Shown here: piece after piece, positions 28,605 through 47,974 of the stretch
Position numbering within the stretch: position 1 is the first letter of the stretch
Layout: each line of letters starts with the position of its first letter
Assembly (NCBI RefSeq): GCF_020164455.1
Contig: NZ_JAIQWW010000011.1
Location: 1-64,000, forward strand
Length of the DNA stretch: 64,000 bases
Source: Phyllobacterium chamaecytisi
GTDB taxonomy: Bacteria; Pseudomonadota; Alphaproteobacteria; Rhizobiales; Rhizobiaceae
Direction: 5' to 3'
The notes under the pieces: model-generated
Database searches by the model: none
What the model was told of the DNA's origin: nothing
The model's input: only the letters and a program-made list of their open reading frames with translations
Made by a program: the position numbers and the translations under genes

Positions 28605-29498
28605 CTATGCCGTTTGATAGCGTGGTGCTGCTGTCAACGCAGTTGTAAGGTGGCTCGTCATCAACAGGGCAGCTTTCTGTTGGTCGCCGACGGATATTGC
28701 GTCAAGAATGGTGACATGCTCGTGGCACCAATCCCGAACGCGTCGACGGTTGGTGTACCCGCCAAACTCCAATAGGCGGCGCAACCGGTTCTGTTGCTGT
28801 ATCGCCTGCAGAAAGAAGATGTTCCCGCTGAATTCAGCAACCATTTCGTGAAATTGCGCATCTGTTTCAAAAAGCTGGCGGGGATCTACGGTCGTGATAT
28901 CAGGATGCGCTTCAAGGTAAAGATGCTGAAGACGCGATCGTTCGAGGGCCGCAGCATCGAAGCGAAACGTTTTAAGCAAAATCCCTGCCGGCTCGATCGT
29001 CTTACGGAAGTCATAGCTGTTACGCAGAGCCACCTGCGTATCAAGGGTAGGAAGAAAGATCCAACCCCGGCCGCTGTTCCTGGCGATCAACCCGTCGTTG
29101 ACTAGATGCGCAATCGTACGCTGCAAGAGAATCCTGTCGACACCATAGCGGCGGCTGATTTCAGTCTGTGTGATCGTTTCGTTGAGCTGGCCAGAAAGCC
29201 GGTCTTCTACTATGCGGGTATAGAGATCTTGATCGGCCGTAGACGGAATTTCGACTTCCAACCGGTGAAGCTCTTCGGGCGGGGCTTTGAGGAAAAATCC
29301 CTGATTCTTGATTGCCTCAACCGCGCCACGCTCGGCAAGTAAGGTGAGTGCGGACCGTATCGGTGTCCTGGAGACGCCGAGCAGGTCACCAAGCTGCTGT
29401 TCGCGCAGGTGATGGCCAGGTTCGAAGCGCGCTTCGCGCGCAACATCAAGAATTTGATTGGCGAGCCGATATCGGCTCTGACGCGCATTGTTCGCCAT
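28605..29498 (-). CDS. GntR-family regulator with two winged-helix domains
   Basis: A 297-residue DNA-binding protein. The first wHTH (about residues 8-70) is classical GntR: LREQQLGDLLGVSRTPIRSALTLLAERGAV. A second winged-helix-like segment follows at about 95-155 (TITQTEISRRYGVDRILLQRTIAHLVNDGLIARNSGRGW), then a helical FCD-like effector domain (about 160-285). The tandem HTH is unusual for this family. A GTG at 29510 is an alternative start. It is divergent from the locus A importer, and two near-identical motifs in the shared promoter (29538-29551 and 29742-29755) are likely operators. Confidence 0.8.
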   Translation of the reverse strand: MANNARQSRYRLANQILDVAREARFEPGHHLREQQLGDLLGVSRTPIRSALTLLAERGAVEAIKNQGFFLKAPPEELHRLEVEIPSTADQDLYTRIVEDRLSGQLNETITQTEISRRYGVDRILLQRTIAHLVNDGLIARNSGRGWIFLPTLDTQVALRNSYDFRKTIEPAGILLKTFRFDAAALERSRLQHLYLEAHPDITTVDPRQLFETDAQFHEMVAEFSGNIFFLQAIQQQNRLRRLLEFGGYTNRRRVRDWCHEHVTILDAISVGDQQKAALLMTSHLTTALTAAPRYQTA

Positions 29499-29533
29499 TT
29501 CAGGGTCCACTTAGTACGAGTAGTGCCGAGCTT

Positions 29534-29551
29534 ATACAATTGTATTGATAG
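29534..29551. promoter_or_regulatory. Operator-like site O1
   Basis: The palindrome ATACAATTGTAT (29534-29545) overlaps AATTGTATTGATAG (29538-29551). It lies about 35 bases before the GntR start. The 14-base motif recurs at 29742 with one mismatch. Confidence 0.55.
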
Positions 29552-29741: not shown

Positions 29742-29755
29742 AATTGTATTGTTAG
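29742..29755 (+). promoter_or_regulatory. Operator-like site O2
   Basis: AATTGTATTGTTAG, 13 of 14 bases identical with O1 in the same orientation, 46 bases before the importer operon start. It is probably bound by the divergent GntR regulator. Confidence 0.55.
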
Positions 29756-29801: not shown

Positions 29802-30611
29802 ATGAACAAGACAACGATTGCTGCATTTGCCTTGACGTTGTGCGCCGCCACGCCCGTGGCTGCTGCGGAACTGCCTGCAACCGGTTTGGTCGAGGATGGA
29901 TCATTGACATATGGCGTTGCTGCTACCTTTGCGCCGTTCGAATTTCAGAAGGGCGGACAGCTTACGGGTTTTGACATCGATATGATCCAGGCGCTGGCCA
30001 AGAAACTCAATGGCCAGGCCAAGGCGATGAACATGGAGTTCAAAGGTCTGATACCCGCGCTCAGCGGCGGCCGGATCGATCTCATCAACTCGGCGATGTA
30101 TATGAATGCCAAGCGCGCCGAGCAGGTCGACTTCATTCCGTATCTCAAAATCGGCAATCAGGTCATTGTTCAGGCGGGCAATCCGGCAAAAATAACAGGG
30201 CGGGATGACTCTCTCTGTGGCAAGACGATTTCGGTGACGCTCGGCGGGATTCAGGAGAACCAGGCTCGCGCCGACGATGAGCGCTGCAAGGCAAAGGGCC
30301 TCGACGGCGTCAAGGTCCTGACATTCCCGACCGCGCAGGATTCCGCGCTGACGTTGCGGCAGGGTCGGGCGGATGCCACCTTCGACTCCACACCCGGTGC
30401 CGTTGTCCTGCAAACCGAGGTGCCGGGCGTTTATGAAACGGTCGGAGCCGAGTTCGAATCGGATACCAGCATCGGCATGGCAACACGCAAGGGCGATACA
30501 GCGGTACAGGGCGCAATAAAGGCGGCGCTCGAGGAGATCGTTGCTGACGGAACGTACAAGCAACTGATCGAAAAATGGAAACTTCCGGCCTCCGTATCGA
30601 TCTTCAACTGA
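29802..30611 (+). CDS. Amino-acid-type ABC transporter, substrate-binding protein (locus A)
   Basis: A 269-residue periplasmic binding protein of family 3 (polar amino acids, opines, ectoines). A signal peptide (MNKTTIAAFALTLCAATPVAAA) precedes LTYGVAATFAPFEFQKGGQLTGFDIDMIQALAKKLNG, the family signature. Two cysteines (in DDSLCGKT and DERCKAKG) could pair. It starts the operon with the permease 24 bases downstream. The substrate is unknown, and the genes that follow suggest an amino-acid derivative. Confidence 0.87.
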   Translation: MNKTTIAAFALTLCAATPVAAAELPATGLVEDGSLTYGVAATFAPFEFQKGGQLTGFDIDMIQALAKKLNGQAKAMNMEFKGLIPALSGGRIDLINSAMYMNAKRAEQVDFIPYLKIGNQVIVQAGNPAKITGRDDSLCGKTISVTLGGIQENQARADDERCKAKGLDGVKVLTFPTAQDSALTLRQGRADATFDSTPGAVVLQTEVPGVYETVGAEFESDTSIGMATRKGDTAVQGAIKAALEEIVADGTYKQLIEKWKLPASVSIFN

Positions 30612-30635: not shown

Positions 30636-31364
30636 ATGTCACTCGAACTCGTCTTCGACTACCTGGTTTCGCCCGCTTTCTTTCACGGTGCGATGCTTAC
30701 GCTCCTGATTACAGCGACATCGCTTCTATTCGGAATTATCGTCGGTCTCGTCGTGGCGCTCCTGCAGGAATCGCGCTTCCGCTTTCTGCAGGGGTCGACG
30801 CTGGTCTATCTCTGGCTCTTCCGCGGCACGCCCGTCCTGTTCCAGATCATATTCATTTACAATGTTCTGCCCACCTTCGGAATCCGGCTTTCGGCTTTCG
30901 TCAGTGCCGTCATCGCGCTGTCGCTGAATGAAGGCGCCTACATGGCCGAAATCATTCGCTCCGGGTTACAGGCCGTGAAGAAAGGCCAGCGGACAGCCGG
31001 TCTGGCGCTCGGTATGACGCGGGCTGCCGTCATGCGCTATATCGTGATCCCGCAGGCTGCACGTATCATCCTTCCACCAATTGGCAATCAGATGATCGGC
31101 ATGCTGAAGACGAGCGCTCTCGTTTCTGTCGTCGCGGTCGAGGAACTGCTGCTCGTTGCCAACCAGACGGCGAGCTCGAATTTCCGCTATTTCGAAGCAT
31201 TGACTGCGGCGGGTATCTACTATCTGGCGCTGACCACTCTGTTCATGGTGTTTCAATACTTCCTCGAACGATCACTTGACCCCAAGCGAGCCCGTCGAAG
31301 CCAAAAGTCGGTCCCCCTTCTTGATCGGCTGACGCTCATCACCCAGCAAACCGAATCCCGGTGA
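30636..31364 (+). CDS. Amino-acid-type ABC transporter, permease (locus A)
   Basis: A 242-residue inner-membrane permease of the HisM/GlnP family with about five membrane segments. The N-terminal GAMLTLLITATSLLFGIIVGL is the first. The cytoplasmic EAA loop reads LNEGAYMAEIIRSGLQAVKKGQRTAGLALGMTRAAVMRYIVIPQAARIILPP. It is the only permease gene in the operon, so it should work as a homodimer. The stop lies just ahead of the ATPase gene. Confidence 0.88.
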   Translation: MSLELVFDYLVSPAFFHGAMLTLLITATSLLFGIIVGLVVALLQESRFRFLQGSTLVYLWLFRGTPVLFQIIFIYNVLPTFGIRLSAFVSAVIALSLNEGAYMAEIIRSGLQAVKKGQRTAGLALGMTRAAVMRYIVIPQAARIILPPIGNQMIGMLKTSALVSVVAVEELLLVANQTASSNFRYFEALTAAGIYYLALTTLFMVFQYFLERSLDPKRARRSQKSVPLLDRLTLITQQTESR

Positions 31365-31375
31365 AGGAGAAAGCC

Positions 31376-32125
31376 ATGACAACGTCTGTTCAGCCGCCAC
31401 TCCTCGAATTGATGGGCGTCCATAAGAGCTTCGGGCACTACGCGGTGCTCAAGGCATGCAGCCTCGACGTAAAGAGCCGGGAAACCGTCGTCATAATCGG
31501 GCCTTCGGGATCCGGGAAGTCCACGCTCCTGCGCTGCGTCAATCTTCTTGAGCCACCGGATAGCGGTAATATCTTCTTCGATGGCGCAGATATTACCTCT
31601 GATTTGCGCAACGCTACTGAAATTCGCCGCCATATCGGGATGGTTTTCCAAAATTTCGAACTGTTCCAGCATTTGTCGGCAGTCGAGAATATCATGCTTG
31701 CGCCGATGAAGGTGTCGGGTATCAGCCGGGCGGACGCCCACGACATCGCGACCGATCTGCTGCGCAAGGTCCACATTCCCGAAAAAGCGGATTTCTTTCC
31801 TGACGAGCTGTCGGGTGGCCAGCAGCAACGCATTGCAATTGCCCGCGCGCTCGCCATGAAGCCCAAGCTCATGCTCTACGACGAGCCAACCTCCGCCCTC
31901 GACCCGGAAATGATCCGAGAAGTTCTGGACGTAATGGCGGAACTCAGCAGCGAGGGCATGACGAGCATTGTTGTCACACATGAAATGGGTTTTGCCAAAC
32001 GCGCTGCCGATCAAATCGTCTTCATGGAGAACGGCGAAGTCATCGAGAACGCGTCCAGCGAAGAGTTTTTCGGCGGCACCGTGAACGAGCGCGCGCGGCG
32101 GTTTCTCGATCAGATACTGCACTAA
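31376..32125 (+). CDS. Amino-acid-type ABC transporter, ATPase (locus A)
   Basis: A 249-residue cytoplasmic ATPase of the GlnQ/HisP group. It has Walker A GPSGSGKST, Q-loop MVFQNFELF, signature [16 protein letters not shown], Walker [15 protein letters not shown] and an H-loop VVTHEMGFA. The ATG at 31376 is chosen over an upstream GTG because GAAGGAG lies seven bases before it. The stop is 14 bases before the M20 peptidase gene, so import and hydrolysis are co-transcribed. Confidence 0.9.
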   Translation: MTTSVQPPLLELMGVHKSFGHYAVLKACSLDVKSRETVVIIGPSGSGKSTLLRCVNLLEPPDSGNIFFDGADITSDLRNATEIRRHIGMVFQNFELFQHLSAVENIMLAPMKVSGISRADAHDIATDLLRKVHIPEKADFFPDELSGGQQQRIAIARALAMKPKLMLYDEPTSALDPEMIREVLDVMAELSSEGMTSIVVTHEMGFAKRAADQIVFMENGEVIENASSEEFFGGTVNERARRFLDQILH

Positions 32126-32139
32126 CCGGAAGAATATAC

Positions 32140-33297
32140 ATGTCCCAGATGCCCGACACCGCGCGCATGAAGCGCGAACTCGCCGAAATCATCAGTATCC
32201 GCACGGAAAACCCGCCAGGCCGGGAAGCCGATGCCGCGGTCTACGTCCAGAACCTCCTCGTGGCGGCTGGCTTTGATGTTTCGCTGACGGAATACAAACC
32301 CGGCCGTTTCAACGTCGAGGCGCGGCTTGAAAACGGTCTTGGCCCAGTCTTCGCCTTTAATACCCACATGGATACCGTGCCGGCAGGAGAGGGGTGGAGT
32401 TCCGACCCTTTCCAGCTTCGCGAGGCCGATGGCAAGCTCTTCGGCCGCGGCGCATGCGATTGCAAGGGACCCCTGATCGCGATGGTGGAAGCCCTGCGGA
32501 TGCTGGCTTCCGAGCGTCAGTCCTGGTCCGGCACGCTGCTCGGCGTCTTCGTCGGTGACGAGGAGATCGCGAGTGAGGGAGCAAAATTCTATGCAGCGGG
32601 CAAGCCGAAGATTGACTTCACTGTTGTCGGCGAGCCGACGTCAAACACGACATTCTCCGCCCACAAGGGAAGTTTGCGCCCGGTTGTCCGCGTGTACGGC
32701 GTGTCCGCTCATTCGGGCACACCTCATCTTGGAGAGAACGCTATTTACCGGGCGGCCCAGCTCCTCGGAATGATCGAGACCCACCACGATAAAGTAGTGC
32801 GTCTCCGCGCTCATCCACTGGTCGGGGAGGCCAGTCTCACAGTAACCCGCATTTGGGGCGGCCATGCAGACAATGTGCTGCCGGGCGCTTGCGATCTGCT
32901 GCTTGACCGCCGGATGGTCCCGGGCGAGGACGAAGAGGCTGTAAAAAAGGAGATCGCCGATCTGCTGCTGGCGGCCAATCGGCGATTTGGCTTGCGCGCC
33001 GAGATCGTCGAATACAGGGCGACCACTGGCAGCGCGACCGAAACGGCAGGCGATGCCACAATAGTGCAGGCAAGCCTCGCCGCGTGCAGGGCCCATGGGA
33101 TCTCGACGCCAGGCCCGTTCGGGTTTCAGGGAGGCTGCGATCTCGTCCACTTCCGGGAACTCGGTGCACAGGGAACGGTGATAGGGCCCGGCACTCTATC
33201 TGTCGCTCACAAGCCGGATGAATTCGTGCCGGTTGATGAATTCGTCACGGCGGCCCTCATCTATCGTGACGTCGCGAAGTCAATGCTCTCGGCTTAG
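32140..33297 (+). CDS. M20-family amidohydrolase (ArgE/DapE type)
   Basis: A 385-residue zinc-dependent deacylase or peptidase. The metal and catalytic motifs are in order: FNTHMDTVP (His and Asp), GRGACDCKGPLIA, VGDEEIASEGAKF (catalytic Glu pair), VVGEPTS, and the C-terminal AHKPDEFV with the last His. A dimerisation lid lies at about 180-290 (GSLRPVVRVYGVSAHSG). Relatives remove acyl groups from N-acyl amino acids, including the N-acetyl-diaminobutyrate step of ectoine breakdown. It follows the importer ATPase and abuts the enolase-superfamily gene. The substrate is unknown. Confidence 0.85.
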   Translation: MSQMPDTARMKRELAEIISIRTENPPGREADAAVYVQNLLVAAGFDVSLTEYKPGRFNVEARLENGLGPVFAFNTHMDTVPAGEGWSSDPFQLREADGKLFGRGACDCKGPLIAMVEALRMLASERQSWSGTLLGVFVGDEEIASEGAKFYAAGKPKIDFTVVGEPTSNTTFSAHKGSLRPVVRVYGVSAHSGTPHLGENAIYRAAQLLGMIETHHDKVVRLRAHPLVGEASLTVTRIWGGHADNVLPGACDLLLDRRMVPGEDEEAVKKEIADLLLAANRRFGLRAEIVEYRATTGSATETAGDATIVQASLAACRAHGISTPGPFGFQGGCDLVHFRELGAQGTVIGPGTLSVAHKPDEFVPVDEFVTAALIYRDVAKSMLSA

Positions 33298-34398
33298 ATG
33301 ATGCGCGCCTCACTTTATCGCACCTCGCTTCGCTACGGCGGCGGTCTTATGCTTCACACGGCCTCGTCGGGTCCTGTTGACGGCTTGGACACCCTACACC
33401 TGCGATTGCAGGACAAGGAAATCACGGCGGTGGGCGAGGTTCGCATCAACATCGCCTACCTGAACGGAATGGCGGCCGAAACTGTCGAGTGTGAGGCAGT
33501 AGGGCTGTTGGAGTGTGTTGACTGGACGAAGGATGCCGAACGCCTTCTAACAGACCTCGCGATGACCGATGGCGTGAGTGCACCGGTGCGGATGCTTGTT
33601 GATATCGCGCTCCACGATTTCTTGGCAAGGCGGGACCGTATTCCGCTTGCGGCATGGCTCGGCGCTGATTGCATCCGATCGGTCTCATATCCCACCAACC
33701 AGACGCTCTTCATTTCTTCAGCCGGGCGCTTCCTGTCGCAGGCAGAGAGCTACGTGTCGCGCGGGTTCCGCGATCTGAAGGTGCGTGTCGGCTCTGCCGG
33801 ATTTGACGATGACGTTGCGCGGCTGGTTGCACTCCGCGAGCGGTTCGGCGGGGACATCAAGCTTGCGATCGATGCGAATGGAGCGTGGAGCGCTGACGAG
33901 GCTGTGGAAAATCTGTCAGCGCTGGCGGGATTCGAACTGGCCTATGTCGAGCAGCCGGTGGCCGCCGGGGACTGGGATGTGCTGAACAGGCTCGCCGAGA
34001 CGAGCCCCATCCCTCTGATGCTGGACGAGAGCGTTGCAGGCCAGGCTGATGTTGACACCGTAATCAGGTCGAAAGGCAGACTTTGGGCCCATCTCAAGCT
34101 TGTAAAGCTGGGCGGGATAGCCCCCACGCGGGCGGCTGCGGATCGGCTGCGTGCGGCCGGCATTCCGTTCATGATCGGTCAGATGAACGAAGGGGGCATA
34201 GCGACGGCTGCTGCCTTGCATCTTGCCTGCGCCGTTGGTCCGCATTTTGCCGAACTCTATGGCGCAGACGGCCTGGAGAACGATCCGGCGAGCGGTCTCA
34301 TCTACGCGCAAGGCCGGGTGGGCAGTAGTGCCGCGCCGGGCTTGGGATTGACATTCGAAGCATCAAAGACGCGTCTCATCAGGGAGTTTTCAGCATGA
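33298..34398 (+). CDS. Enolase-superfamily enzyme (muconate cycloisomerase-like)
   Basis: A 366-residue (beta/alpha)7-barrel enzyme of the MLE subgroup. The metal ligands are Asp192 (DANGAW), Glu218 (YVEQP) and Asp243 (LDES). The general bases differ from the norm: Lys161 in LKVRVG is followed by Arg163 where KxK enzymes have a second lysine, while Lys267 in HLKLVK is present. This suggests one-sided proton chemistry (epimerase, dehydratase or cycloisomerase with altered stereochemistry). It starts directly after the M20 stop and overlaps the M24 gene by four bases (ATGA). The reaction is unassigned. Confidence 0.8.
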   Translation: MMRASLYRTSLRYGGGLMLHTASSGPVDGLDTLHLRLQDKEITAVGEVRINIAYLNGMAAETVECEAVGLLECVDWTKDAERLLTDLAMTDGVSAPVRMLVDIALHDFLARRDRIPLAAWLGADCIRSVSYPTNQTLFISSAGRFLSQAESYVSRGFRDLKVRVGSAGFDDDVARLVALRERFGGDIKLAIDANGAWSADEAVENLSALAGFELAYVEQPVAAGDWDVLNRLAETSPIPLMLDESVAGQADVDTVIRSKGRLWAHLKLVKLGGIAPTRAAADRLRAAGIPFMIGQMNEGGIATAAALHLACAVGPHFAELYGADGLENDPASGLIYAQGRVGSSAAPGLGLTFEASKTRLIREFSA

Positions 34399-35573
34399 AC
34401 ATATCCAGCGGTGTTGTGCAGGGACAGGAATCTGCCTTTCCCAAGGAGGAATATGAGCGCCGGCAGGCGCGGGCGCGCGAAAACCTTGCCGCTGCAGGTA
34501 TCGACGCGCTCGTTGTCACGGGTCCGGAGAACATCTTCTATCTGACAGGTCAACAGACCCCCGGATACTACACGTTTCAGGCGCTGGTGCTTCCTGCCGC
34601 CGGAGATCCGGTCTTCGTCATCCGCCAACTCGAATATTTCAATTTCATCGCCAACACTTTCATTCCGGATGCGGAGGTTTATCAGGATGGCGACGAGCCC
34701 GTCTCGTTCCTGGTGGCGGTCATCGAAAAACGCGGTCTTGCCTCAAAGCGGGTCGCGATCGATAAGCGTGGCTGGTTCCTTCCGATAGCCGTCTACGAAG
34801 CGCTGCAGGCCCGATTGGGAGCGATTCATGACGGTGCCGGGTTGATCGAGAGCCTTCGCGCCGTCAAGTCTTCTCTCGAGGTCGAAAAGCTCGAGCGTGC
34901 CGCCAGCTATGTCGATAAGGGAATGCGGGCGGGGCTTGCCGCAGTCCGGATAGGAGCCAGCGAAAACGATCTCGTCGCGGCAATGATGGGGGCGGCAATC
35001 AGTGCCGGTTCTGAATATCTCGGTATGGAGCCGCTCGTTTCCGTCGGCCCGCGCACGGGAGTCCCCCATGGTACATGGCGCCGGCGCGAGATCGAAGCGG
35101 GCGATCCCGCCTTCCTCGAGATGGCGGCTTGCCATGACCGGTATCACGCTGCCCTCATGCGCTCCGCCTGGATCGGCTCTCCTCCAAAGGAAGCCGCCGA
35201 CATGATGAAGACTTGCCAGGAGGCGCTGCAGGTTGCACTCGATGCTATTCGCCCGGGCGTACCGTGCGAGGGTCCGCATATCGCCTGCCAGAAGGTGATC
35301 GACGCGGCCGGCTATACCGACAATTTCCGCAAGCGCCTTGGCTACAGTGTCGGAATCTCGTTTGCACCTGACTGGGGCGAGGGTGCCATCCTCAGCCTCA
35401 ACGCTGGCGTGAAGACCGAGTTGCAGCCGGGAATGACATTTCACCTTCCTCCGGCGCTTCGCATCTACGGGCGCTTCACAGTCGGTGTCAGCGAAACCAT
35501 CGTCGTCACTGAAACCGGATATCGCGCTCTCGGCAGCATCGGCCGCGAACTGCTTGAAGTTGCAGATCACTGA
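34395..35573 (+). CDS. M24-family hydrolase, creatinase/ectoine-hydrolase-like
   Basis: A 392-residue 'pita-bread' hydrolase. The N-terminal creatinase domain holds VTGPENIFYLTG. The metal ligands of aminopeptidase P are absent: the DxGxxxxGYxxD segment is replaced by FLEMAACHDRYHAAL. Creatinase-type residues remain: His225 (GVPHGTW), Glu242 (FLEMA) and Glu367 (VSETIVV). LGYSVGISFAPDWGEG closely resembles the ectoine hydrolase DoeA/EutD family. It should therefore hydrolyse a cyclic amidine, amide or ureido-type bond without metal. It overlaps the previous gene by four bases, so it belongs to the same operon. Confidence 0.8.
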   Translation: MNISSGVVQGQESAFPKEEYERRQARARENLAAAGIDALVVTGPENIFYLTGQQTPGYYTFQALVLPAAGDPVFVIRQLEYFNFIANTFIPDAEVYQDGDEPVSFLVAVIEKRGLASKRVAIDKRGWFLPIAVYEALQARLGAIHDGAGLIESLRAVKSSLEVEKLERAASYVDKGMRAGLAAVRIGASENDLVAAMMGAAISAGSEYLGMEPLVSVGPRTGVPHGTWRRREIEAGDPAFLEMAACHDRYHAALMRSAWIGSPPKEAADMMKTCQEALQVALDAIRPGVPCEGPHIACQKVIDAAGYTDNFRKRLGYSVGISFAPDWGEGAILSLNAGVKTELQPGMTFHLPPALRIYGRFTVGVSETIVVTETGYRALGSIGRELLEVADH

Positions 35574-35592: not shown

Positions 35593-36516
35593 ATGAAAGA
35601 CATCAGCGAAACGCGGGCCCGGCTCAAGGGCATTTTCAACATCACCGTTACGCCCTTCAGCAAGGACGGGGCGATCGACCGCGCGGGGCTTTCCCGCAGC
35701 ATCGAGCGAGTCATCGGGCTGGGGTTCGACGGCGTTCTCATTGGTGGGACGTATGGTGAGTTTCCGGCGATGTCGACGGAGGAACGGGCCGATGTTTTCC
35801 GCCATGTCATGGATGTCGTTGGCGACCGCGTCCCTGTGATGCTGTGCAGCGCCCACTCCGATGTCCGGGTTGTGCGCGATCTGACGAAACTCGCCGGTGA
35901 TCTCGGCGGCCTGCCTATGGTGACCCCGCCTTACGTTTCGGAAGTCACGGACGGGCAGATCGTCTCATTCTTCCGCGATATGGCGCCCCTGTCGAAGACG
36001 GGTATTCTCGTCTACAACGCACCAGGCATCGGCATCACCCTGTCGCCAACCCTGCTCGAACAACTCGCCGACATCGGCAATGTCGCCGGTATCAAACAGG
36101 GTGACTTGAACCCGACCGCGATAGATCAGATTGCCAATCGGCTTGGTGGTCGCCTTCGGCTTTTCTGCGCCTCGGATCTCGCTTTTCTCGGACCGGTTAT
36201 GGCTGGGTTTGATGGCATCAGCTCCACGAACAGCTGCGCATTGCCGGAACTTATTCTCGCGACGTACCGCGCACTGGAGAAAGGCGACGCTGCGGCGGCC
36301 CGTGACCTTCATCAGCTCTGGTATCCATTCCGTGCGCTCGCGCGCAAGCACGGCCAGCCGCAGACAACGAAGGCTGCAATGAACCTTCGCGGGTTCGATG
36401 GTGGCTCCGTCAGGCAGCCGCTACGGGACCTCGACGAAGCTGTCCATAATGAGATTTCCGCTGTTCTCGATAGCCTTGCCGGTGATACCCGGACAAAGGT
36501 GACGCTCGCCGCCTAA
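35593..36516 (+). CDS. Dihydrodipicolinate synthase-family lyase
   Basis: A 307-residue class I aldolase/lyase fold of the DapA/NanA family. Schiff-base Lys168 (AGIKQGD) and the tyrosine Tyr141 (LVYNAPG) are present. The usual GTTGE is GGTYGEFPAM here. The C-terminal region (RKHGQPQTTKAAMNLRGF) is typical of non-DapA members. The family includes sialate lyase, KDG aldolases and hydroxyproline-pathway deaminases. It is the last gene of the importer operon and ends at a terminator. It probably cleaves or dehydrates the 2-oxo acid product. Confidence 0.85.
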   Translation: MKDISETRARLKGIFNITVTPFSKDGAIDRAGLSRSIERVIGLGFDGVLIGGTYGEFPAMSTEERADVFRHVMDVVGDRVPVMLCSAHSDVRVVRDLTKLAGDLGGLPMVTPPYVSEVTDGQIVSFFRDMAPLSKTGILVYNAPGIGITLSPTLLEQLADIGNVAGIKQGDLNPTAIDQIANRLGGRLRLFCASDLAFLGPVMAGFDGISSTNSCALPELILATYRALEKGDAAAARDLHQLWYPFRALARKHGQPQTTKAAMNLRGFDGGSVRQPLRDLDEAVHNEISAVLDSLAGDTRTKVTLAA

Positions 36517-36593: not shown

Positions 36594-37811
36594 TCACGCG
36601 ACCCTGCGGTCGCGAAGTTTACCGCAGGCCCCCACAATACGATCGCAGGCAGTGCGCAATGTTTCGGTGTCGATTGCGTAGGCAATGCGAATGTGTCCGG
36701 GCGCGCCGAAGGCTGAGCCGTGGACCACACCCACATGAACTTCCTCGATCAGATAGGCCGCAAAATCCAGGTCACTGGAAATCATCCGGCCATCCGGGCG
36801 GTATTTCCCGATGAGGCCCGAACAATCGGCAAAGACATAAAACGCGCCTTCGGGAACGTCCGCATCAAGGCAAGTCAGGCCCTGAAGCGAATCAAGGACG
36901 ATGTCGCGGCGTTCCCGCAGTACCTTCATCCATTCGGTCATGAAGCTGGTGCCACCGTCGAGTGCCGCGATGGCCGCCTGCTGGCTGATCGAACTTGGGT
37001 TGGACGTACTTTGGGATTGAAGTATCTGCATGGCATCGATCAGCCATTCCGGGCCTCCGGCATAGCCGACACGCCACCCCGTCATCGAGTAACCTTTCGA
37101 CAATCCGTTGACCGTTAGAACGCGTGGCCTCAGCTGTGGCTCCACGGCTGCTGGAGTCGCGAAATCGCAGTCGTACCGGACGTGTTCGTAAATGTCGTCG
37201 GCGAGAATGAGGACGGTATCATGAGGTAGCAGTACATCCGTCAGAGCTTTCATTTCTGCCGGACTGTAGACCGCTCCGGTCGGGTTGTTGGGAGAGTTGA
37301 GAACAACCCAGCGGGTCCGCTCCGTGAGAGCGTTCTGCAGCGCCTGCGCTGTCAGTTTCCACCCGTCTTCCCTTGGGCAGGAAACGACTACAGGTTCGCC
37401 GCCGGCGAGCCGGATCATGTCGGGATACGAGACCCAATAGGGCGCTGGCACGATAACCTCATCGCCATCAGAGAGCGTAGCGAGAAAAGCGTTGAAGATG
37501 AGCTGCTTGGCTCCGGCTCCGGCAATGACTTCCGACGGCCCGTAGGACAGGCCGTTTTCAGTTGTGAATTTTCTACATATTGCTGCCCGAAGTTCCCTCG
37601 TACCGGCTACCGCGGTATATTTCGTGTTACCGTTGCGGATTGCCGCGATGCCTGCCTCGCAGACAGCAGCCGGCGTTGCAAAATCGAGTTCGCCTTCGCC
37701 GAGATTGATGACGCTGTGTCCAGCGGCGGCAAGCGCACGTACCTTATTGGAGATCTCCGCGGTTGGCGACGAGCCGACGAGACTCATTCGAGGGGCAAGC
37801 AGTGGGTGCAT
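36594..37811 (-). CDS. Class I/II pyridoxal-phosphate aminotransferase
   Basis: A 405-residue aspartate-aminotransferase-fold enzyme of subgroup I-gamma. It has INLGEGELDFATP near the N-terminus, the SPNNPTGAVYS substrate segment, DDIYEHVRY and the PLP lysine Lys239 in NGLSKGYSMTGWRVGYAGG. The ATG at 37811 is preferred to a TTG at 37817. It is divergent from the glutaminase gene across an AT-rich region with the dyad TATCAATTGATA. It could remove or add the amino group of the locus A substrate or product. Confidence 0.85.
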   Translation of the reverse strand: MHPLLAPRMSLVGSSPTAEISNKVRALAAAGHSVINLGEGELDFATPAAVCEAGIAAIRNGNTKYTAVAGTRELRAAICRKFTTENGLSYGPSEVIAGAGAKQLIFNAFLATLSDGDEVIVPAPYWVSYPDMIRLAGGEPVVVSCPREDGWKLTAQALQNALTERTRWVVLNSPNNPTGAVYSPAEMKALTDVLLPHDTVLILADDIYEHVRYDCDFATPAAVEPQLRPRVLTVNGLSKGYSMTGWRVGYAGGPEWLIDAMQILQSQSTSNPSSISQQAAIAALDGGTSFMTEWMKVLRERRDIVLDSLQGLTCLDADVPEGAFYVFADCSGLIGKYRPDGRMISSDLDFAAYLIEEVHVGVVHGSAFGAPGHIRIAYAIDTETLRTACDRIVGACGKLRDRRVA

Positions 37812-37846
37812 TGACAAATTCCTGTGTTGCGTCGTTCTTTACATTG

Positions 37847-37858
37847 TATCAATTGATA
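37847..37858. promoter_or_regulatory. Dyad TATCAATTGATA in the divergent region
   Basis: A 12-base perfect palindrome within CATTGTATCAATTGATATA. It shares ATTGTAT and AATTG blocks with operator-like sites O1 and O2. It lies between the aminotransferase and the glutaminase gene, so one regulator could control both transcription units. Confidence 0.45.
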
Positions 37859-37976: not shown

Positions 37977-39203
37977 ATGGGTCTTCTCCTGGTCGAGCAC
38001 AATATTGCGGAGCCCGCTCTCTACGGGGCCGCCGCCGCAGCTGTGGCATCCGCGAGGCAGTGCCGAATGATGCATCTGCCGGCACGTTTCGATACCGGTC
38101 AGCATGCCGACGCGGTCCAGCACGTTGTCGCAGCAGGCGGGCTGGCGGCCAGCGGTCTTTGCTGGTTCGAACGCCTGAACGGGCAACCCGTTTCGTCTGC
38201 GGCCACCGTCGACGACATCGTGGCGGCCGCCAAGCAGGCAGAGGTGGTTGTTCCAGTTCATCCGCGATTTGTCGACACTCCAGTGCTTGTCCGTCTGCTC
38301 ACACGATCGGCTGCCGATTCCGGAATCAGAGTCGAGGCTATCCATATCGAAAGGGACGGGAATGCTCTGCGCGAGCGCGGGACGGGGTTGCCAGTCGCAT
38401 GGCGGGATTCGTTCGGGCGCATTACGGCCTTCGATCGCTCCTCCGTTGGCGGCCAGACATCGCTGCAGATTGGACTGATTGGCTCTGAGAGCGATCACCG
38501 CGATGTCTATCCCGCTGCCCTGGCCAGTCTTGCCGATGCGGCCGACGCACTCTCGGTGGATCTTGATATCCGGTTCGTCGATCCGATGTCGCTTGCCGGG
38601 CCTAACGATTGTGCGGAATTGCAAACCCTTTCCGGCATCCTTTTGCCCGGCGGGGCGGCGATGAAGAACGTTCCCGGTCAGATCGAGGCCGCCGCTGCAA
38701 GTCTCGCCTCCGGCCTACCTACAGTCGGTCTTTGTCTTGGAATGCAGACCATGGCGACCGCGATCGCATGGCGCGCCTTTGGCAGGGGAACCGCCAACCT
38801 CGCTGAGGCCGACCCCGACGCGGCGATCAAGACGTTTGTCCCGCTGGAGGGACAAAGTGGCCCAGACGGCGAATCCCTTCCGGACCACAGAACCGGGGAG
38901 TGGATGACACGGGTTGTTGACGGAACGCAGCTGTCGCTCATTCTGCCGATGACAACTCCGGTTCGTTACAACCACCGCTTCCGGCTCGATCCGCAGTTGC
39001 TTCCGGCCCTCCGGCTGGCGGGGATGCAGGTGTCAGCCGAGGGCTTCGGCGGGGCGATCGTCGATGCGATCGAGGATCGCGACCACCCGTTTTTCATCGG
39101 TATGCAGGGTCATCCAGAGCTGAGTTCAAGCGATCGCAAGCCCCACGCGCTGTTGACGGCATTTCTTGTGGCAGCGCGAGAACACAAACCACGAACGGAA
39201 TGA
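37977..39203 (+). CDS. Orphan CTP-synthase-type glutaminase with unknown N-terminal domain
   Basis: A 408-residue protein. Residues about 165-405 form a class I glutamine amidotransferase of the PyrG C-terminal type: ILLPGGAAMKNVPGQ, nucleophile Cys253 in GLCLGMQ, VRYNHRF (compare RYRHRYEV of CTP synthase) and the His379/Glu381 pair in the segment PFFIGMQGHPEL, which continues with SSSDRKP. The amidoligase (synthase) domain of CTP synthase is absent. Residues 1-165 show no recognised motif; this part is Ala-rich with alternating beta and helix patterns. It may supply ammonia to an unknown acceptor in the N-terminal domain or to a partner. The SDR gene follows by 19 bases. GGAG precedes the ATG. 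Confidence 0.75.
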   Translation: MGLLLVEHNIAEPALYGAAAAAVASARQCRMMHLPARFDTGQHADAVQHVVAAGGLAASGLCWFERLNGQPVSSAATVDDIVAAAKQAEVVVPVHPRFVDTPVLVRLLTRSAADSGIRVEAIHIERDGNALRERGTGLPVAWRDSFGRITAFDRSSVGGQTSLQIGLIGSESDHRDVYPAALASLADAADALSVDLDIRFVDPMSLAGPNDCAELQTLSGILLPGGAAMKNVPGQIEAAAASLASGLPTVGLCLGMQTMATAIAWRAFGRGTANLAEADPDAAIKTFVPLEGQSGPDGESLPDHRTGEWMTRVVDGTQLSLILPMTTPVRYNHRFRLDPQLLPALRLAGMQVSAEGFGGAIVDAIEDRDHPFFIGMQGHPELSSSDRKPHALLTAFLVAAREHKPRTE

Positions 39204-39221: not shown

Positions 39222-40004
39222 ATGGATCTCAATATCAAGGGCCGCACGGCGCTTGTGCTCGGCTCCAGCCAGGGGCTGGGCCTCGCTGTCGCACGCAATC
39301 TCGCGGGTGAGGGGGCGTCGGTCATTCTCGTTGGGCGATCTGGCGAGCGCCTTGAGGCAGCTGCCGCAATCGTCCGGGCTCAAACCAGTGAAGAGGTGAG
39401 AACCGAGGTTGTCGATTTTTCGGATTCTGATGCTCTCGACAGGTGGTTGACGTGGATCACTGATTACAGGGTCGACATCCTTGTCAACAACGGAGGCGGA
39501 CCACCGCCCGGACCGGTTGCTGGAGTTACAGCCGATGTCTGGCGCAAGCAATTCGATACCATGGTCAATGCCCCGTTTCGCGTCACGACCGCGATCCTGC
39601 CGGGCATGCGCGATAGAACGTGGGGGCGTATCATCAACATTGTCTCATCCGGGGTCGTTCAGCCGATCGCGAATCTTGGCATCTCGAACACACTCCGTCT
39701 CTCGATTATTGGCTGGGCAAAAACACTGGCTGCCGAGGTTGCATCAGACGGGGTTACCGTCAATTCCGTCATCCCCGGCCGAATCCATACCTCTCGGGTT
39801 GACCAGCTTGACAAGGCGGCGGCGGACAGAACCGGAACGACGCAGGATGCGATCGCCGAGTCGTCCCGCGCAGCGATACCAATCGGGCGGTACGGAAGAC
39901 CGGAGGAGTTCGCAGATGCCGTTGCGTTTCTTGCCAGCGAGCGAGCCAGTTACATCACCGGCACGACCTTGCGTGTCGACGGCGGGATGGTTCGGAGCGT
40001 GTGA
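39222..40004 (+). CDS. Atypical short-chain dehydrogenase/reductase
   Basis: A 260-residue Rossmann-fold protein. The cofactor loop GSSQGLGLA (NADPH-type), NNGGG at 89-93 and Ser143 in VSSG are present. Alignment with the canonical YxxxK places Ser155 and Arg159 there (NLGISNTLRLSIIGWAKTLA). The usual catalytic Tyr and Lys are therefore replaced. A group of FabG-like SDRs with this change occurs in rhizobia. The C-terminus (ASYITGTTLRVDGGMVRSV) is complete. It is co-directional with the glutaminase gene. Confidence 0.8.
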   Translation: MDLNIKGRTALVLGSSQGLGLAVARNLAGEGASVILVGRSGERLEAAAAIVRAQTSEEVRTEVVDFSDSDALDRWLTWITDYRVDILVNNGGGPPPGPVAGVTADVWRKQFDTMVNAPFRVTTAILPGMRDRTWGRIINIVSSGVVQPIANLGISNTLRLSIIGWAKTLAAEVASDGVTVNSVIPGRIHTSRVDQLDKAAADRTGTTQDAIAESSRAAIPIGRYGRPEEFADAVAFLASERASYITGTTLRVDGGMVRSV

Positions 40005-40108: not shown

Positions 40109-41866
40109 TCATGTGCGGCGCGGCTGCATGCATTCGATGATGACAAACATGATGATAACGATCAGAAGCACGACCACCGCTGCGGCCGCGAGGGTAGGGT
40201 TCACTTGCAGTGTAATGTCATCCCACATTTGCTTTGGAAGGGTCGTCTTCAGGCCACCACCCAGAAAGATCGCGACTGTGAGTTCCTGAAAAGATTGCAG
40301 GAAACCGGTGACAAATCCAACGACAACACCGCTCCGTACCAGCGGAAGTGTAACACGGCGCACCACCTGGAACCGATTGGCCCCGAGCGTCGACGCGACC
40401 TGATCCAATCGCCAGTCATGACCCTTGAAGGTAGCCAAAAGAATAACAAATACGATTGGCATGGCAATAACAGTGTGGCCAATGACAATCGAGATATCCG
40501 TCGCGATCAGTTGCAGCTGTGCAAAAAGATAAAAGAGTGAAATTGCAATTACGATGGGCGGGACTACCATCGGCGCCATGAAAAGCAGAAAAGCGAAGCC
40601 GGCAAGTCTGCTGCTGGATTTGGCAAGCGCGAAAGCGGCAAAAGAGGCGATAACCAGCGTCAATGCTGCTGCGACGATGCCGATCGCGAACGACCGTAGT
40701 GTCGCTGACACCCAGAGCGGCGAGGCTGCGTAGGCCTCGAACCAGCGGATGCCAAGACCTTTTGGCGGAAAAGACAGGAATGAGCCTTCTGTGAACGCCA
40801 TCGGGATAAAGGCGATGATCGGGAAGAGCAGGATGGCGATAACCAGCGTGCAATAGGCGGAAAGCAGCTTCCTTGCTGGCAATCCCCGTATAGTCCGGCC
40901 ATATACTTCTCCTACCCTGGAGAAGAACCCACCGACCCTCTTGGTCAAAGCGATACCGAAAAGTCTCAATTTGCCCTCGGCCGATCCGGCCGTTTGTCCA
41001 CCGGACATCGTTGAAAGACCAAAGATACGATCATAAAGAAAAATGGTGAGTAGTGCAGCGGCAATAAGCACGACCGCCAGCGCACTTCCAAGCTGCCAGT
41101 TCTGCAACTGCTGTATCTGCGTGATGATCAACTGGCTGATCATCGTTTCCTGCCGGCCGCCAACCAGGGCCGGCGTGATGAAGAAGCCGAGGGCGGAGAT
41201 GAACACCAGTAGACCGGCCGTGGCAACGCCACGCATGCACAGGGGCAGATAGATTTGCCAGAATGCCTGTGGCGCGCTGGCGCCAAGCGTCATGGCTGCC
41301 ATGGTGAGGCGCTTGTCGACGGTGTTCATTACCGGCAGCATGGTGACGACGGTCAATGGCAGCATCGTATGAATCATGGCGAAGAGAACCGTAGTGCGGC
41401 TGAAGAGCAGATCATCGCCGCCAGGTAAGCCGAGGTTCGACATGACCAGTGCGACGACACCATTGCGGCCAAGCAGAACCAGCCATGAGAAATTGAGGAC
41501 CAGCGGACTTGTCCAGAAGGGAAGCAGGATGAACATCAGCGCTATCCGCTGGCGGCGTGCCGGCTGCTGCGAAAGCCAGTAGGCGAGGGGATATCCCAAG
41601 AGCAGGCAGAGTACCGTCACCTGGAAGGCGATCATGAACGTTGTTCCCAAGACGCGGGAATAAACCTTCGACCCGAAAAGCTTCACATAGGCTGATACTC
41701 CAAAGTCGCCGGTTGCTCTCTCAACGAAGCTGATAGACATCATCTGCAAAGTGGGCAGAAGGAAAAATGCGAGCAGAAAGACAATTCCGGGTACCACCAG
41801 CCAGAATGCACTGCCTCTCCGCGACGTATGATTTGACGCTGGGGCCGCTATCGCGAGGTCTGCCAT
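40109..41866 (-). CDS. ABC transporter permease, fused two-domain (locus B)
   Basis: A 585-residue inner-membrane protein with two complete permease domains (about residues 20-285 and 310-580), as in PotB fused to PotC. Each has six or so membrane segments, and the EAA loop of each is visible (TLGASAPQAFWQIYLPLCMRG and STLGANRFQVVRRVTLPLVRSG). The linker at 290-330 is charged. The frame is unbroken. The ATG at 41866 is chosen over an upstream one. It lies downstream of the binding protein and ATPase genes and is the last gene of the operon. Confidence 0.85.
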   Translation of the reverse strand: MADLAIAAPASNHTSRRGSAFWLVVPGIVFLLAFFLLPTLQMMSISFVERATGDFGVSAYVKLFGSKVYSRVLGTTFMIAFQVTVLCLLLGYPLAYWLSQQPARRQRIALMFILLPFWTSPLVLNFSWLVLLGRNGVVALVMSNLGLPGGDDLLFSRTTVLFAMIHTMLPLTVVTMLPVMNTVDKRLTMAAMTLGASAPQAFWQIYLPLCMRGVATAGLLVFISALGFFITPALVGGRQETMISQLIITQIQQLQNWQLGSALAVVLIAAALLTIFLYDRIFGLSTMSGGQTAGSAEGKLRLFGIALTKRVGGFFSRVGEVYGRTIRGLPARKLLSAYCTLVIAILLFPIIAFIPMAFTEGSFLSFPPKGLGIRWFEAYAASPLWVSATLRSFAIGIVAAALTLVIASFAAFALAKSSSRLAGFAFLLFMAPMVVPPIVIAISLFYLFAQLQLIATDISIVIGHTVIAMPIVFVILLATFKGHDWRLDQVASTLGANRFQVVRRVTLPLVRSGVVVGFVTGFLQSFQELTVAIFLGGGLKTTLPKQMWDDITLQVNPTLAAAAVVVLLIVIIMFVIIECMQPRRT

Positions 41867-41988
41867 TTGTTGTTCACTCACTTTTCGGACGCGGTGCCGG
41901 GCGGTAACTCGTGCCACCCGGCTGATCGCATGTCGATTGGTGCCGCGGGAAGCGTGGGTTCAGATCTTCCGGCCCGACTATTCGGGGA

Positions 41989-43053
41989 CTACTGCAGGAG
42001 GAATTCCTGCATCCTTTCAGCCATCGCGTCATAATTCTTGCCCCACCAAGCGGTGTTCATTTCGAAGAGGCTCTTGATGTTGTCGGGTGCAGTCGGCAGA
42101 ACCGCGGCGCGCTCTGCAGAGAGGAAGTTGAAGGCTTTGCTGTTGGAAGGCCCATTGGCAACTATGGTGGAATACGCGGCCTGGTGCTCTGGCTGCATGC
42201 AGAATTTTACAAACTGCTGCGCCAGTGCGAGACGAGGTGTGCCCTCGGGGATGGACCAGCCGTCGACGCTGTAGCAGCCTTGGAAGAGAATCTTCAACGG
42301 TGCGCCGCCGGCAATAGCCGCATAAGCACGTGCAGACCAGGTGTCTGACATGTCAACTTCGCCGTTCTGGAGGATCTGTGTATTCTGGGCACCGCTTGTC
42401 CACCAGACATTCACATGTTCGCGGATCTTTTCAAGCGAGGCAAATGCGCGGTCCACATCGATCGGATAGATATCTGCGGGCTTGACGCCATCAGCAAGCA
42501 GCGCGACTTCAAGAAGACCCCAAGGGTCCTTGTAGAGCGCACGACGGCCGGGGAATTTTTCGACATCCCAGAAATCCGGCCAGCTTTGCGGGTCCTTGCC
42601 GTCGAACTTATCCGTGCGATAGGCCATCGCGATTGCGAAGACAGAAAACCCAAGCCAGTTCGATGTCAGCATGCCCGGAAGGATATCCTTGCCGTCGGCT
42701 TCGGATATGCCGAGTGGCGCGAGATAGTTCTTTTCGTTCGTCAGCCGAACGACATGGTCAGGTGTGACCATCGATACGTCCCATATGTAGGATTTTGTAT
42801 CAACCAGCAGCTTGAATTGAGTGACCGGGTCCGGATCGTGGGCAACTCCCACCACCTTGATCCCGGTCTCCTTCTCAAAGGGTTCGTAGAAGGCTTTCTT
42901 GATGGCCTCTCCAGGCGCGCCGCCGACATCAGATACAGTGATCTGCTCCGCCGCGAAGGCACCGCGGGTGAAGATTGCCGGGACGGCGAGAGCGCCAACA
43001 GCAACACCTGCCTGCAGAACGTTGCGCCGCGTTATCTTGATCGTTTTTGACAT
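41989..43053 (-). CDS. ABC transporter substrate-binding protein, PotD/PotF-like
   Basis: A 354-residue exported binding protein. The leader ITRRNVLQAGVAVGALAVPAIF with adjacent arginines is Tat-like. The mature domain follows the spermidine/putrescine and iron-type solute-binding pattern (VYWTSG-like VNVWWTSGAQNT, WSARAYAAIAGG, GWSIPEGTPR, ALAQQFVKFCM). It lies between the ATPase and permease genes. The substrate cannot be named; polyamine-like or organic anion ligands are usual in this family. Confidence 0.82.
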   Translation of the reverse strand: MSKTIKITRRNVLQAGVAVGALAVPAIFTRGAFAAEQITVSDVGGAPGEAIKKAFYEPFEKETGIKVVGVAHDPDPVTQFKLLVDTKSYIWDVSMVTPDHVVRLTNEKNYLAPLGISEADGKDILPGMLTSNWLGFSVFAIAMAYRTDKFDGKDPQSWPDFWDVEKFPGRRALYKDPWGLLEVALLADGVKPADIYPIDVDRAFASLEKIREHVNVWWTSGAQNTQILQNGEVDMSDTWSARAYAAIAGGAPLKILFQGCYSVDGWSIPEGTPRLALAQQFVKFCMQPEHQAAYSTIVANGPSNSKAFNFLSAERAAVLPTAPDNIKSLFEMNTAWWGKNYDAMAERMQEFLLQ

Positions 43054-43134
43054 GAAGCTATTCCCCTTTTCTTGTGGTCTATTGATTTTGTCGTTGATTG
43101 TTCCCATTCAGTCCGGACTAGCCGGTGGGCGCTG

Positions 43135-44232
43135 CTAGCTCTTGAGATATTGCGATTGTCGCGGTTCCCAATTCAGGCCGACTTCGCTTCCAAGTTGAAG
43201 TAACTGCTGACCGGCCTGCCGCCGAACGGTGAAGACAGCCCCGCTACGAAGCGCAATCAGGACCCGGGTCTCAGATCCCGCATAGATCGATTCCGTGACA
43301 CAACCGGAGAGAAAGCAGTTGCCCGCCGCCACGAGGCTCATCTGTTCTGGGCGTATGATGAGAGCGCCACGTTCACCGTTGCTTGCCCGACAGCTGGGCG
43401 GTAGAGGCAGGACCCCCTCAGCAGTGACCAGTGTCATGCCCTCAACATGTCCGCGCAAGAGATTGGTGATCCCGATGAACTCTGCAGCAAATGTACTGGC
43501 CGGCCGCTCATAGATCTCCTCAGGCGTTCCGAGCTGCTCGATCCGGCCGGCATTCATCAGGCAGATACGGTCCGAAAGCGCGAGCGCCTCCTCCTGGTCA
43601 TGTGTCACGAACACGATCGTTGATTTCGTCTCGCGGTGGATCCGCTTGATCTCGATCTGCATGGTTTCGCGTAACTTGCGATCCAGAGCGGACAGGGACT
43701 CGTCCATCAAGATGATCGAGGGTTCATAAACCAGACATCGGGCCAAGGCGACGCGTTGCTGCTGGCCACCGGACAGTTCAAGCGGAAACCGTTTCTCGAA
43801 CTCCACGAGACCGACCATGGCAAGTGCGTTCTGCACCTTGGTTCGGATGAGTGCGGCATCAAGTTTCCGCATTTGCAGTGGAAATGCGACGTTTTCCTGC
43901 ACCGTCAGATGCGGAAAGAGCGCATAGTTCTGGAACACTACACCGATATCTCGCTTGTTAGCGGTTGTTTCGGTGTGATCTTTGCCATCGATGACAAGGC
44001 GTCCATTCGTCGGCTCAACAAGGCCACAAATGAGCTGGAGGAGGGTGGTCTTTCCCGAGCCGGACGGGCCAAGCAGGGTCAGCAACTCCCCCGATCGAAT
44101 CTTTAATTCGATTGGGTGCAGCGCCACAGAGGTGCCATAGCTTTTAGATAGGCCTTGGGCATGCAATTTGATTTCTGCACCTGATTTCCCGGTAGCAGAA
44201 GATGTAGCGACAATGTTGCCAGGCATGTGCAT
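43135..44232 (-). CDS. ABC transporter ATPase, PotA-like
   Basis: A 365-residue ATPase. Walker [11 protein letters not shown]-loop VVFQNYALF, signature [15 protein letters not shown], Walker [13 protein letters not shown] (Ser in place of the usual Pro) and H-loop [10 protein letters not shown] are followed by a C-terminal TOBE domain (about 275-360, [11 protein letters not shown]). It is the first gene of the transporter unit. A GGAGA site precedes the ATG at 44232. Confidence 0.88.
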
Positions 44233-44592
44233 TATCTATCTGTCTCCGGACCGCATTGCTTGCATCTGATGCCCTCTCGTCTAGCTGCGCACCGATCCGA
44301 GAACTATCGCTGCGGTCAGTAAGCCCCTTGTGCCGCCCTTAGTAAATTATCAAATTCGAGCCCAATGGTTAGATGATGCCTAATCATGAGGCGGCGACCA
44401 TAAATTAAGCAATTCGGCGGAGGGACATTTTCGTTTGCATCAAGGTTGTCCAATCAGCCGCCGAAACACGGTGTGCACAAATACGTAAGCAAGCGTCATG
44501 CCAGTCCCCCGGCCGTATCAAGTCATTACAGAGAATTGTTCTTCATCAGGATGATGGGAACTGTTGGGGCGGCTATAAACGCCTGCAGTCTC
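44233..44592. other. Intergenic region between the DUF1028 gene and the ABC ATPase gene
   Basis: 360 bases. It must hold the promoter of the transporter unit and the 3' end of the upstream operon. AT-rich blocks lie at about 44330-44440. I see no gene or structured RNA. Confidence 0.4.
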
Positions 44593-45692: not shown

Positions 45693-45703
45693 AGGGGATT
45701 TTC

Positions 45704-46261: not shown

Positions 46262-46297
46262 GATTGAACTCCTGAAGATGGGGTCGAAATCGAAGGG

Positions 46298-47821: not shown

Positions 47822-47974
47822 CTCATATCCTTGGTCATGTTCGTCGCTTCGCTCCGAAGCAATTGCCAGGACTATTGCGGTTCTTGCCGACCTTGGAAAA
47901 TAATAGTTTCCGGGCCTTTGGTTAGTTGATTCCAATTCAGTGCATGCTGTCGCCATCGTCTTTCAACCGACAAA

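Follow-up and report, generated by a model that had tools for sequence, protein, structure and literature searches.

The open reading frame at 37977-39203 (+) of the 64,000-nt stretch of DNA analysed here (the window), from a plant-associated bacterium, starts with ATG and encodes a 408-aa protein, named PyrGL (PyrG-like protein) here. We assign it to a family of class I glutaminases that derive from CTP synthase but do not qualify as CTP synthases themselves. Comparison demonstrates the common ancestry of its glutaminase half with CTP synthase, the retention of the catalytic triad, and a fixed company of neighbouring genes. Taking the sequence comparisons and the structural model together, we consider the chances about even that PyrGL is a re-tooled CTP synthase paralogue re-used as a catabolic omega-amide hydrolase. 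If true, an essential and tightly regulated biosynthetic enzyme would have been re-used through the loss of one half's chemistry. A literature search for the family, its locus tags and the cluster, in which the old tags of Agrobacterium fabrum C58 were guessed from position and few subscription papers were covered, returned no description of PyrGL or its cluster, in line with the initial annotation, which had regarded the protein as a candidate for something undescribed.

37977..39203, + strand: PyrGL, 408 aa (ORF list, translation, profile matches, alignment)
37977..38456, + strand: PyrGL N-half, residues 1-160, probable shrunken amidoligase remnant (fold and profile comparison)
38457..39203, + strand: CTP-synthase-type class I glutaminase domain, residues 161-408 (profiles, alignment)
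38733..38735, + strand: codon of the nucleophile C253 (translation, joint alignment)
39111..39119, + strand: codons of H379-P380-E381, including the catalytic His and Glu (translation, joint alignment)

A wrong frame or chance ORF was ruled out by the ATG-initiated frame, the stops present in its exact reverse frame, and a dN/dS of 0.19 against the copy of a congener (408 codons). By part, dN/dS was 0.30 for residues 1-160 and 0.14 for residues 161-408, values based on few changes (5 and 6 nonsynonymous, respectively). The nearest named match found by searching was that of Candidatus Phyllobacterium onerii, with 97% identity over the whole protein. The 6.36-Mb assembly also carries its own full-length PyrG elsewhere (546-aa frame, G000:C34).

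The glutaminase half keeps its triad and is changed at GTP-site positions

Residues 160-405 of PyrGL matched the CTP synthase glutaminase in NCBIfam (PRK05380, E 1.2e-34; PyrG, E 4.1e-31) and solved CTP synthases (E down to 3e-28), and PyrGL scored 61 bits against the class I glutamine amidotransferase profile PF00117 (Pfam GATase), above the gathering threshold of 22.8. C253, H379 and E381 aligned with the Cys, His and Glu of all 24 PyrG rows, and the triad was invariant in the 14 PyrGL rows of alignment A1. The earlier assignment of residues ~165-405 to a PyrG-type glutaminase with an intact triad thus stands, and the VRYNHRF motif is present as it had been described. With CTP synthase (PyrG, EC 6.3.4.2), PyrGL shares the domain order, the triad, the oxyanion-region GG, the LGMQ motif, and the equivalents of Glu403 and Arg470.

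To a joint glutaminase alignment, 16 PyrGL family rows, 24 PyrG rows and 4 stand-alone glutaminases contributed. Among the PyrGL rows the catalytic Cys and His were each conserved in 15/16 and the Glu in 16/16, and Q257, E277 and R334, which aligned with Gln383, Glu403 and Arg470 of CTP synthase, were each kept in 15/16. One member, L083, has lost the equivalents of Cys, His, Gln383 and Glu403, and the row lacking the Arg equivalent to Arg470 is L006. We take Gln383, Glu403 and Arg470 to have glutamine-site roles in CTP synthase. As these residues are kept, the substrate of PyrGL likely carries free alpha-amino and alpha-carboxyl groups.

Three positions whose residues take part in GTP action according to PMC8325340 and PMC9138612 differ from CTP synthase in every PyrGL row: that of Phe353 is Ala, Ser or Thr (16/16), that of Arg356 is not Arg (Lys in 4, other residues in 12), and that of Arg468 is Asn (16/16). 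PMC9138612 also places Arg470 at the GTP purine. The wing-motif Arg is retained in 16/16 rows, indicating that the GTP region of the family has not been wholly lost and that PyrGL may still respond to GTP. From these residue patterns, the glutaminase half of PyrGL seems to be freed from much of the GTP control. As a natural CTP-synthase-type glutaminase, PyrGL would offer a direct test of ideas on the GTP gating of CTP synthase.

In the glutaminase-half tree, PyrGL (16 rows, support 100/99), PyrG (24 rows, 99/96) and the stand-alone glutaminases (4 rows, 100/99) formed three separate groups, with seven long branches flagged, among them L006, L083 and L051. The stand-alone proteins were assigned by their form to NF004836/PRK06186 (CTP synthase C-terminal region-related (seleno)protein), which shares with PyrGL a PyrG-type glutaminase without a working synthase; unlike PyrGL, its model of 228 positions describes a stand-alone domain. 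Membership of PyrGL in PRK06186 was rejected on its score (63.9 vs a cut-off of 260 bits), the residue differences and the separate tree group. The four stand-alone rows (L086, L087, L088 and L036) keep the Cys, have V or Q for the catalytic His (4/4), and carry P at the first oxyanion Gly. An in-frame TAG was noticed in the genome match behind L088, and NF004836 is listed as including a selenoprotein in PMC13188914.

The class I glutamine amidotransferase fold is used for catabolic hydrolysis in PuuD/Peptidase C26, as is proposed here for PyrGL. PyrGL might accordingly be a gamma-glutamyl-conjugate hydrolase that splits a secondary amide, like PuuD acting on gamma-glutamyl-GABA, rather than a primary one; several homologues are annotated as gamma-glutamyl-gamma-aminobutyrate hydrolase family proteins, a weak Peptidase_C26 match is present, and putrescine degradation provides a similar catabolic context. 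However, PyrGL fell below both curated cut-offs (Peptidase_C26, 18.3 vs 20.5; PuuD model, 20.9 vs 266 bits), its glutaminase half is of the PyrG type, and the annotated cluster tables examined contained no gamma-glutamyl ligase. We therefore judge this function to be unlikely.

The N-terminal half is probably a shrunken remnant of the amidoligase domain

The first 165 residues had been read as an unknown domain fused to the glutaminase, which the comparisons with CTP synthase, at the level of remote homology, do not support. The N-half is 118-181 residues long in the 14 PyrGL rows, about half the length of the amidoligase of PyrG (about 287). Using a 17-row profile, which comprised four more distant rows (L006, L050, L051 and L083) and another alignment method, residues 3-89 were found to be collinear with the start of the PyrG amidoligase, over a stretch that opens with the first strand, includes the P-loop and ends past the GHYERF motif. 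This match had a score of 20.8 (program's P 0.033, probability 1.5%), which was reached by none of 150 column-shuffled and 200 block-shuffled controls; the reversed template scored 12.0. When profiles of ten other operon proteins were compared with PyrG, the ATPase gave 22.1, over 10 columns only, and the rest gave 9.3-16.4. Only the 17-row N-half profile separated from the shuffles, and the earlier comparisons were not significant: the 13-row profile against a 50-row PyrG profile gave P 0.11, with 12/200 column shuffles and 49/200 block shuffles scoring as high.

Fold comparison was based on a whole-chain AlphaFold2 model built from 5 sequences (pLDDT 76.7, pTM 0.79; below 50 in pLDDT at residues 363-381, which hold the catalytic His and Glu). 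In a Foldseek search of the PDB with this chain, full CTP synthase chains made up 46 of the best 50 of 1437 matches, with a query TM of 0.60-0.67 in 43 of these 46 listed rows; the other three were a yeast chain (0.59) and two incomplete human CTPS2 chains (0.57 and 0.51). The four listed glutaminase-only entries had a query TM of only 0.45-0.47. Since the TM is higher on full CTP synthase than on the glutaminase alone, it seems that residues of the N-half also superpose, in an arrangement like that of CTP synthase. Profile and model together make it probable that the N-half is what remains of the amidoligase domain of CTP synthase, shortened and catalytically dead.

We take Lys18 of E. coli PyrG to be the P-loop lysine for ATP and Asp72 to be the Mg-binding aspartate. 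Facing these two residues are Y16 and G60 of PyrGL, respectively, in both the 13-row and the 17-row registers, which disagree between the helix and the GHYERF motif. By this remote alignment, the lysine position is Y in 8, F in 4, D in 1 and L in 1 of the 14 A1 rows, and the aspartate position is Gly in 14/14. Hence the N-half probably lacks the known mode of ATP and Mg binding, although the loss of these residues, while probable, is read from remote homology. PyrGL also scored far below the CTP synthase equivalog cut-offs (120 vs 308 and 108.2 vs 462.75 bits), and the earlier statement that PyrGL holds no working synthase is upheld. A separately encoded synthase domain was looked for by a PyrG family search of the genome (E<=0.001), and the amidoligase half was found only within the full PyrG.

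Alternatively, PyrGL might be an ATP-independent amidotransferase that retains the ammonia tunnel and delivers ammonia from glutamine to an acceptor, bound either by a partner enzyme of the operon or by the remodelled N-half. Conservation extends to the N-half (34% mean pairwise identity, vs 46% in the C-half), with Q48 present in 14/14 rows and position 49 being H in 12/14 and Y in 2/14, and the 13-row alignment pairs Q48-H49 with the Gln-His pair of PyrG that holds His57, the ammonia-gate residue according to PMC9138612 and PMC8325340. In the better-scoring 17-row alignment, however, Q48-H49 are displaced by five columns, and it is D45 that is paired with the gate His; as the match appears in one of two alignments, an ammonia gate in PyrGL is not established. 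The model of the lone N-half has low confidence at residues 39-52, the ATP/Mg residues are absent from the N-half, and why a catabolic operon linked to an importer should require amination is not evident, so that such an activity appears quite unlikely.

The initial annotation viewed the N-half as a new domain, without kinship to CTP synthase and joined to a captured glutaminase; in favour of this is the failure of the region to find matches by itself. Residues 1-160 of the window's PyrGL had no Pfam match; among the N-halves of the 13 members scanned, one other matched DUF5703 (E 0.0016) and one Cupin_6 (E 0.022). The 13-row profile found nothing better than E 0.49 among PDB sequences, and the N-half modelled alone had no Foldseek match at E<=0.001 in the PDB or among viral structures. 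By E-value, KaiC, the T7 gp4 helicase and a diphthine synthase outranked CTP synthase for the lone N-half, yet CTP synthase had the highest query TM (0.48) among the 50 matches listed. Against the collinear 17-row profile, the whole-chain superposition on CTP synthase and the PyrG domain order, an unrelated new domain is very unlikely.

PyrGL lies in a conserved importer and hydrolase cluster

To compare the neighbours of PyrGL, 18 loci were used (the window; L032-L035, L037-L043, L047 with L084, L048, L049, L051, L083 and L085); among them, L032 nearly duplicates the window, and L040 and L041 nearly duplicate each other. The genes of the window that belong to this cluster are as follows.

28605..29510, - strand: GntR-family regulator (stop-to-stop frame matched by the C58 GntR; start not set)
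29802..30611, + strand: family 3 solute-binding protein, core (profile, locus comparison)
30636..31364, + strand: amino-acid ABC transporter permease, core (named from annotated homologues)
31361..32125, + strand: amino-acid ABC transporter ATPase, core (named from annotated homologues)
32140..33297, + strand: M20 ArgE/DapE-family deacylase, core (above the TIGR01910 cut-off)
33298..34398, + strand: mandelate racemase/muconate lactonizing enzyme (MLE) family protein, core (profile, locus comparison)
34395..35573, + strand: M24 creatinase/ectoine-hydrolase-like protein, core (profiles, locus comparison)
35593..36516, + strand: DHDPS-family class I aldolase, accessory (internal ATG start, which fits a 307-aa annotated homologue)
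36594..37817, - strand: aspartate-type PLP aminotransferase, accessory, divergent from PyrGL (profiles, locus comparison)
39222..40004, + strand: SDR oxidoreductase, next gene downstream of PyrGL, accessory and not in all clusters (profiles)

The solute-binding protein, permease, ATPase, M20, MLE and M24 genes accompany PyrGL in 17/18 loci, the exception being L083, which lacks the company of M20, MLE and M24; this recurrence agrees with the catabolic setting proposed earlier from the window alone. The GntR regulator is present in 16/18 loci; L085, a whole 8.9-kb contig that cuts PyrGL, shows none. The aminotransferase (leaving out a 122-bit match in L083) and the DHDPS protein each occur in 12/18. 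In their place, A. fabrum C58 and R. lusitanum carry VOC, GhrA and D-amino-acid transaminase genes; in L034, the aminotransferase is accompanied by VOC and GhrA. In a plasmid collection, the best 30 records for PyrGL were, as compared by eye, the same 30 as for MLE (E<=1e-30) and for M24 (at least 72% identity); they comprise 19 from Agrobacterium (much alike), 8 from Pantoea, 2 from Shinella and 1 from Rhizobium. PyrGL marks an uncharacterised catabolic operon of the A. fabrum C58 At plasmid, Pantoea, Shinella and other bacteria.

A non-catalytic role of PyrGL as a sensor, binding a glutamine-like ligand to regulate the operon or transporter, is highly unlikely. In its favour are the absence of Cys and His from L083 and the altered GTP-site residues of every row; against it, all 14 A1 rows and L051, which all lie in clusters, keep an intact triad, and a GntR regulator is already at hand in 16/18 loci.

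Relatives of the M24 protein (34395-35573) are labelled Xaa-Pro peptidase; by eye, the usual metal-ligand pattern of M24 peptidases seems broken in it, and it looks nearer to creatinase or ectoine hydrolase. Compared with ectoine catabolism (DoeA/EutD), this protein resembles ectoine hydrolase but stays below the cut-off (289 vs 575 bits), and the solute-binding protein of the window stays below that of EhuB (70 vs 191).

A 7-mer shared by two intergenic stretches was noticed by eye as ATACAAT and then counted over all 7-mers, with A+T content uncontrolled.

29534..29545, no strand: ATACAATTGTAT palindrome in the GntR/SBP (solute-binding protein) intergenic region, putative operator (7-mer counts)
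29743-29749, no strand: further half-site in the GntR/SBP intergenic region (7-mer counts)
37843..37849, + strand: ATTGTAT half-site in the aminotransferase/PyrGL intergenic region, putative shared operator (7-mer counts)

Over 10 loci, ATACAAT/ATTGTAT had 14 copies inside the GntR/SBP and aminotransferase/PyrGL intergenic stretches and 6 outside; no 7-mer had a higher inside/outside ratio, and only two others, each seen twice, equalled it. Of its 8 copies in the window, 4 lie within the two stretches. The 7-mer lies inside these stretches in 7/10 loci, and the overlapping AATACAA in 8/10; ATACAAT/ATTGTAT is absent from those of L034, L035 and L048, where, as elsewhere, some bounds were set roughly. 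Its presence in both promoter stretches suggests that PyrGL and the importer operon may answer to one regulator.

The family is rare and often labelled CTP synthase

Within the class, at least 3 of 385 genomes gave a match to the N-half profile, and within the phylum at least 2 of 398 did so, the window's own included in each; these counts are lower bounds, with at most 9 candidates scored per genome. Among 199 relatives, at least 5, own genome included, had a match covering the N-half. PyrGL loci occur in Rhizobiales, Azospirillum, Burkholderia and Pantoea. The initial annotation had called PyrG-like glutaminases without the amidoligase rare; this is partly right, as the PyrGL family itself is rare, but NF004836/PRK06186 exists and stand-alone relatives were present in 3 of 60 phylum genomes. 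PyrGL is distinct from those included in the tree.

In public records, PyrGL homologues go by the name of CTP synthase or of gamma-glutamyl-gamma-aminobutyrate hydrolase family protein. The A. fabrum C58 At-plasmid copy (L037:12001-13224; ATU_RS26150, WP_010974704.1) is annotated as CTP synthase, a name left unsupported by the apparent loss of the synthase residues, and several such public names are likely misannotations. The initial annotation had set two findings against its own reading. The first, an N-terminal part that matches a known domain, was encountered at the level of remote homology; of the second, homologues annotated as CTP synthases with the synthase domain encoded elsewhere, the annotations were encountered, while the genome search showed no separate amidoligase half.

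One member, at L083:8567-9982 (genome G902), lies outside the operon, and both of its halves look dead; it may have a non-catalytic role, and shows that a family member can persist without the catalytic residues.

A predicted amide-splitting step and its sister clusters

PyrGL most likely acts, as judged from its residues and gene company, as a catabolic omega-amide hydrolase of a glutamine-like compound in an undescribed pathway. In the course we propose, the amidoligase half of a CTP synthase ancestor would have shrunk and lost its ATP/Mg chemistry, while the glutaminase half would have stayed active and lost much of its GTP control. An imported amino-acid derivative may be processed by M24, MLE and M20, after which PyrGL would set ammonia free from a side-chain amide without GTP gating, the substrate being glutamine or, with higher likelihood, an intermediate resembling it. 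The acid product could then be transaminated and split or reduced by one of two accessory sets, either the aminotransferase, DHDPS-type aldolase and SDR or the D-amino-acid transaminase and hydroxyacid dehydrogenase. The N-half might serve as a scaffold, lid, selector or regulator. More specifically, and only tentatively, as something possible that we would not call probable, the CTP synthase paralogue would split an amide in an undescribed, often plasmid-borne pathway that breaks down a glutamine-like compound of plant or microbial origin, perhaps resembling a lactam or an opine. The dead synthase half would then act as a substrate-selecting lid, and an anabolic enzyme gated by nucleotides would have given rise to a catabolic one that needs none. 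Opines, N-acetylglutaminylglutamine amide, hydroxyglutamate and methyleneglutamine could each be a candidate substrate.

M24 proteins 54-55% identical to that of the window lie in other clusters together with PxpABC (5-oxoprolinase) genes (L089, L090 and L092). These share with the PyrGL clusters the M24 gene and, in L089 and L092, the company of VOC and D-amino-acid transaminase; they differ in holding PxpABC and a Zn-dependent hydrolase, and the annotations of the stretches examined include neither an MLE nor a CTP-synthase-like gene. The VOC proteins of A. tumefaciens AF1/95 and Salipiger are 92% and 81% identical to the C58 copy, and their D-amino-acid transaminases 60% and 59%; the Salipiger aminotransferase is 64% identical to that of the window (partial frame), and the hydroxyacid dehydrogenases of sister and PyrGL clusters are only 27-28% alike. 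L090 carries hydantoin-type genes. In a Methylobacterium cluster, such genes accompany a protein with a type 1 glutamine amidotransferase domain. The PxpABC clusters hint at an amide or lactam step, and the compounds handled by the putative sister pathway and by that of PyrGL may be related, with an ATP-driven lactamase acting as the opening enzyme in the one and PyrGL in the other. An M24 protein of 41% identity adjoins an ectoine transporter gene.

Outside the conserved cluster, a neighbouring group at 40109-47956 (-) of the window contains DUF1028 and RidA-family proteins and, by eye, ABC transporter genes and flavin-reductase-like and 4-hydroxyphenylacetate-hydroxylase-like frames.
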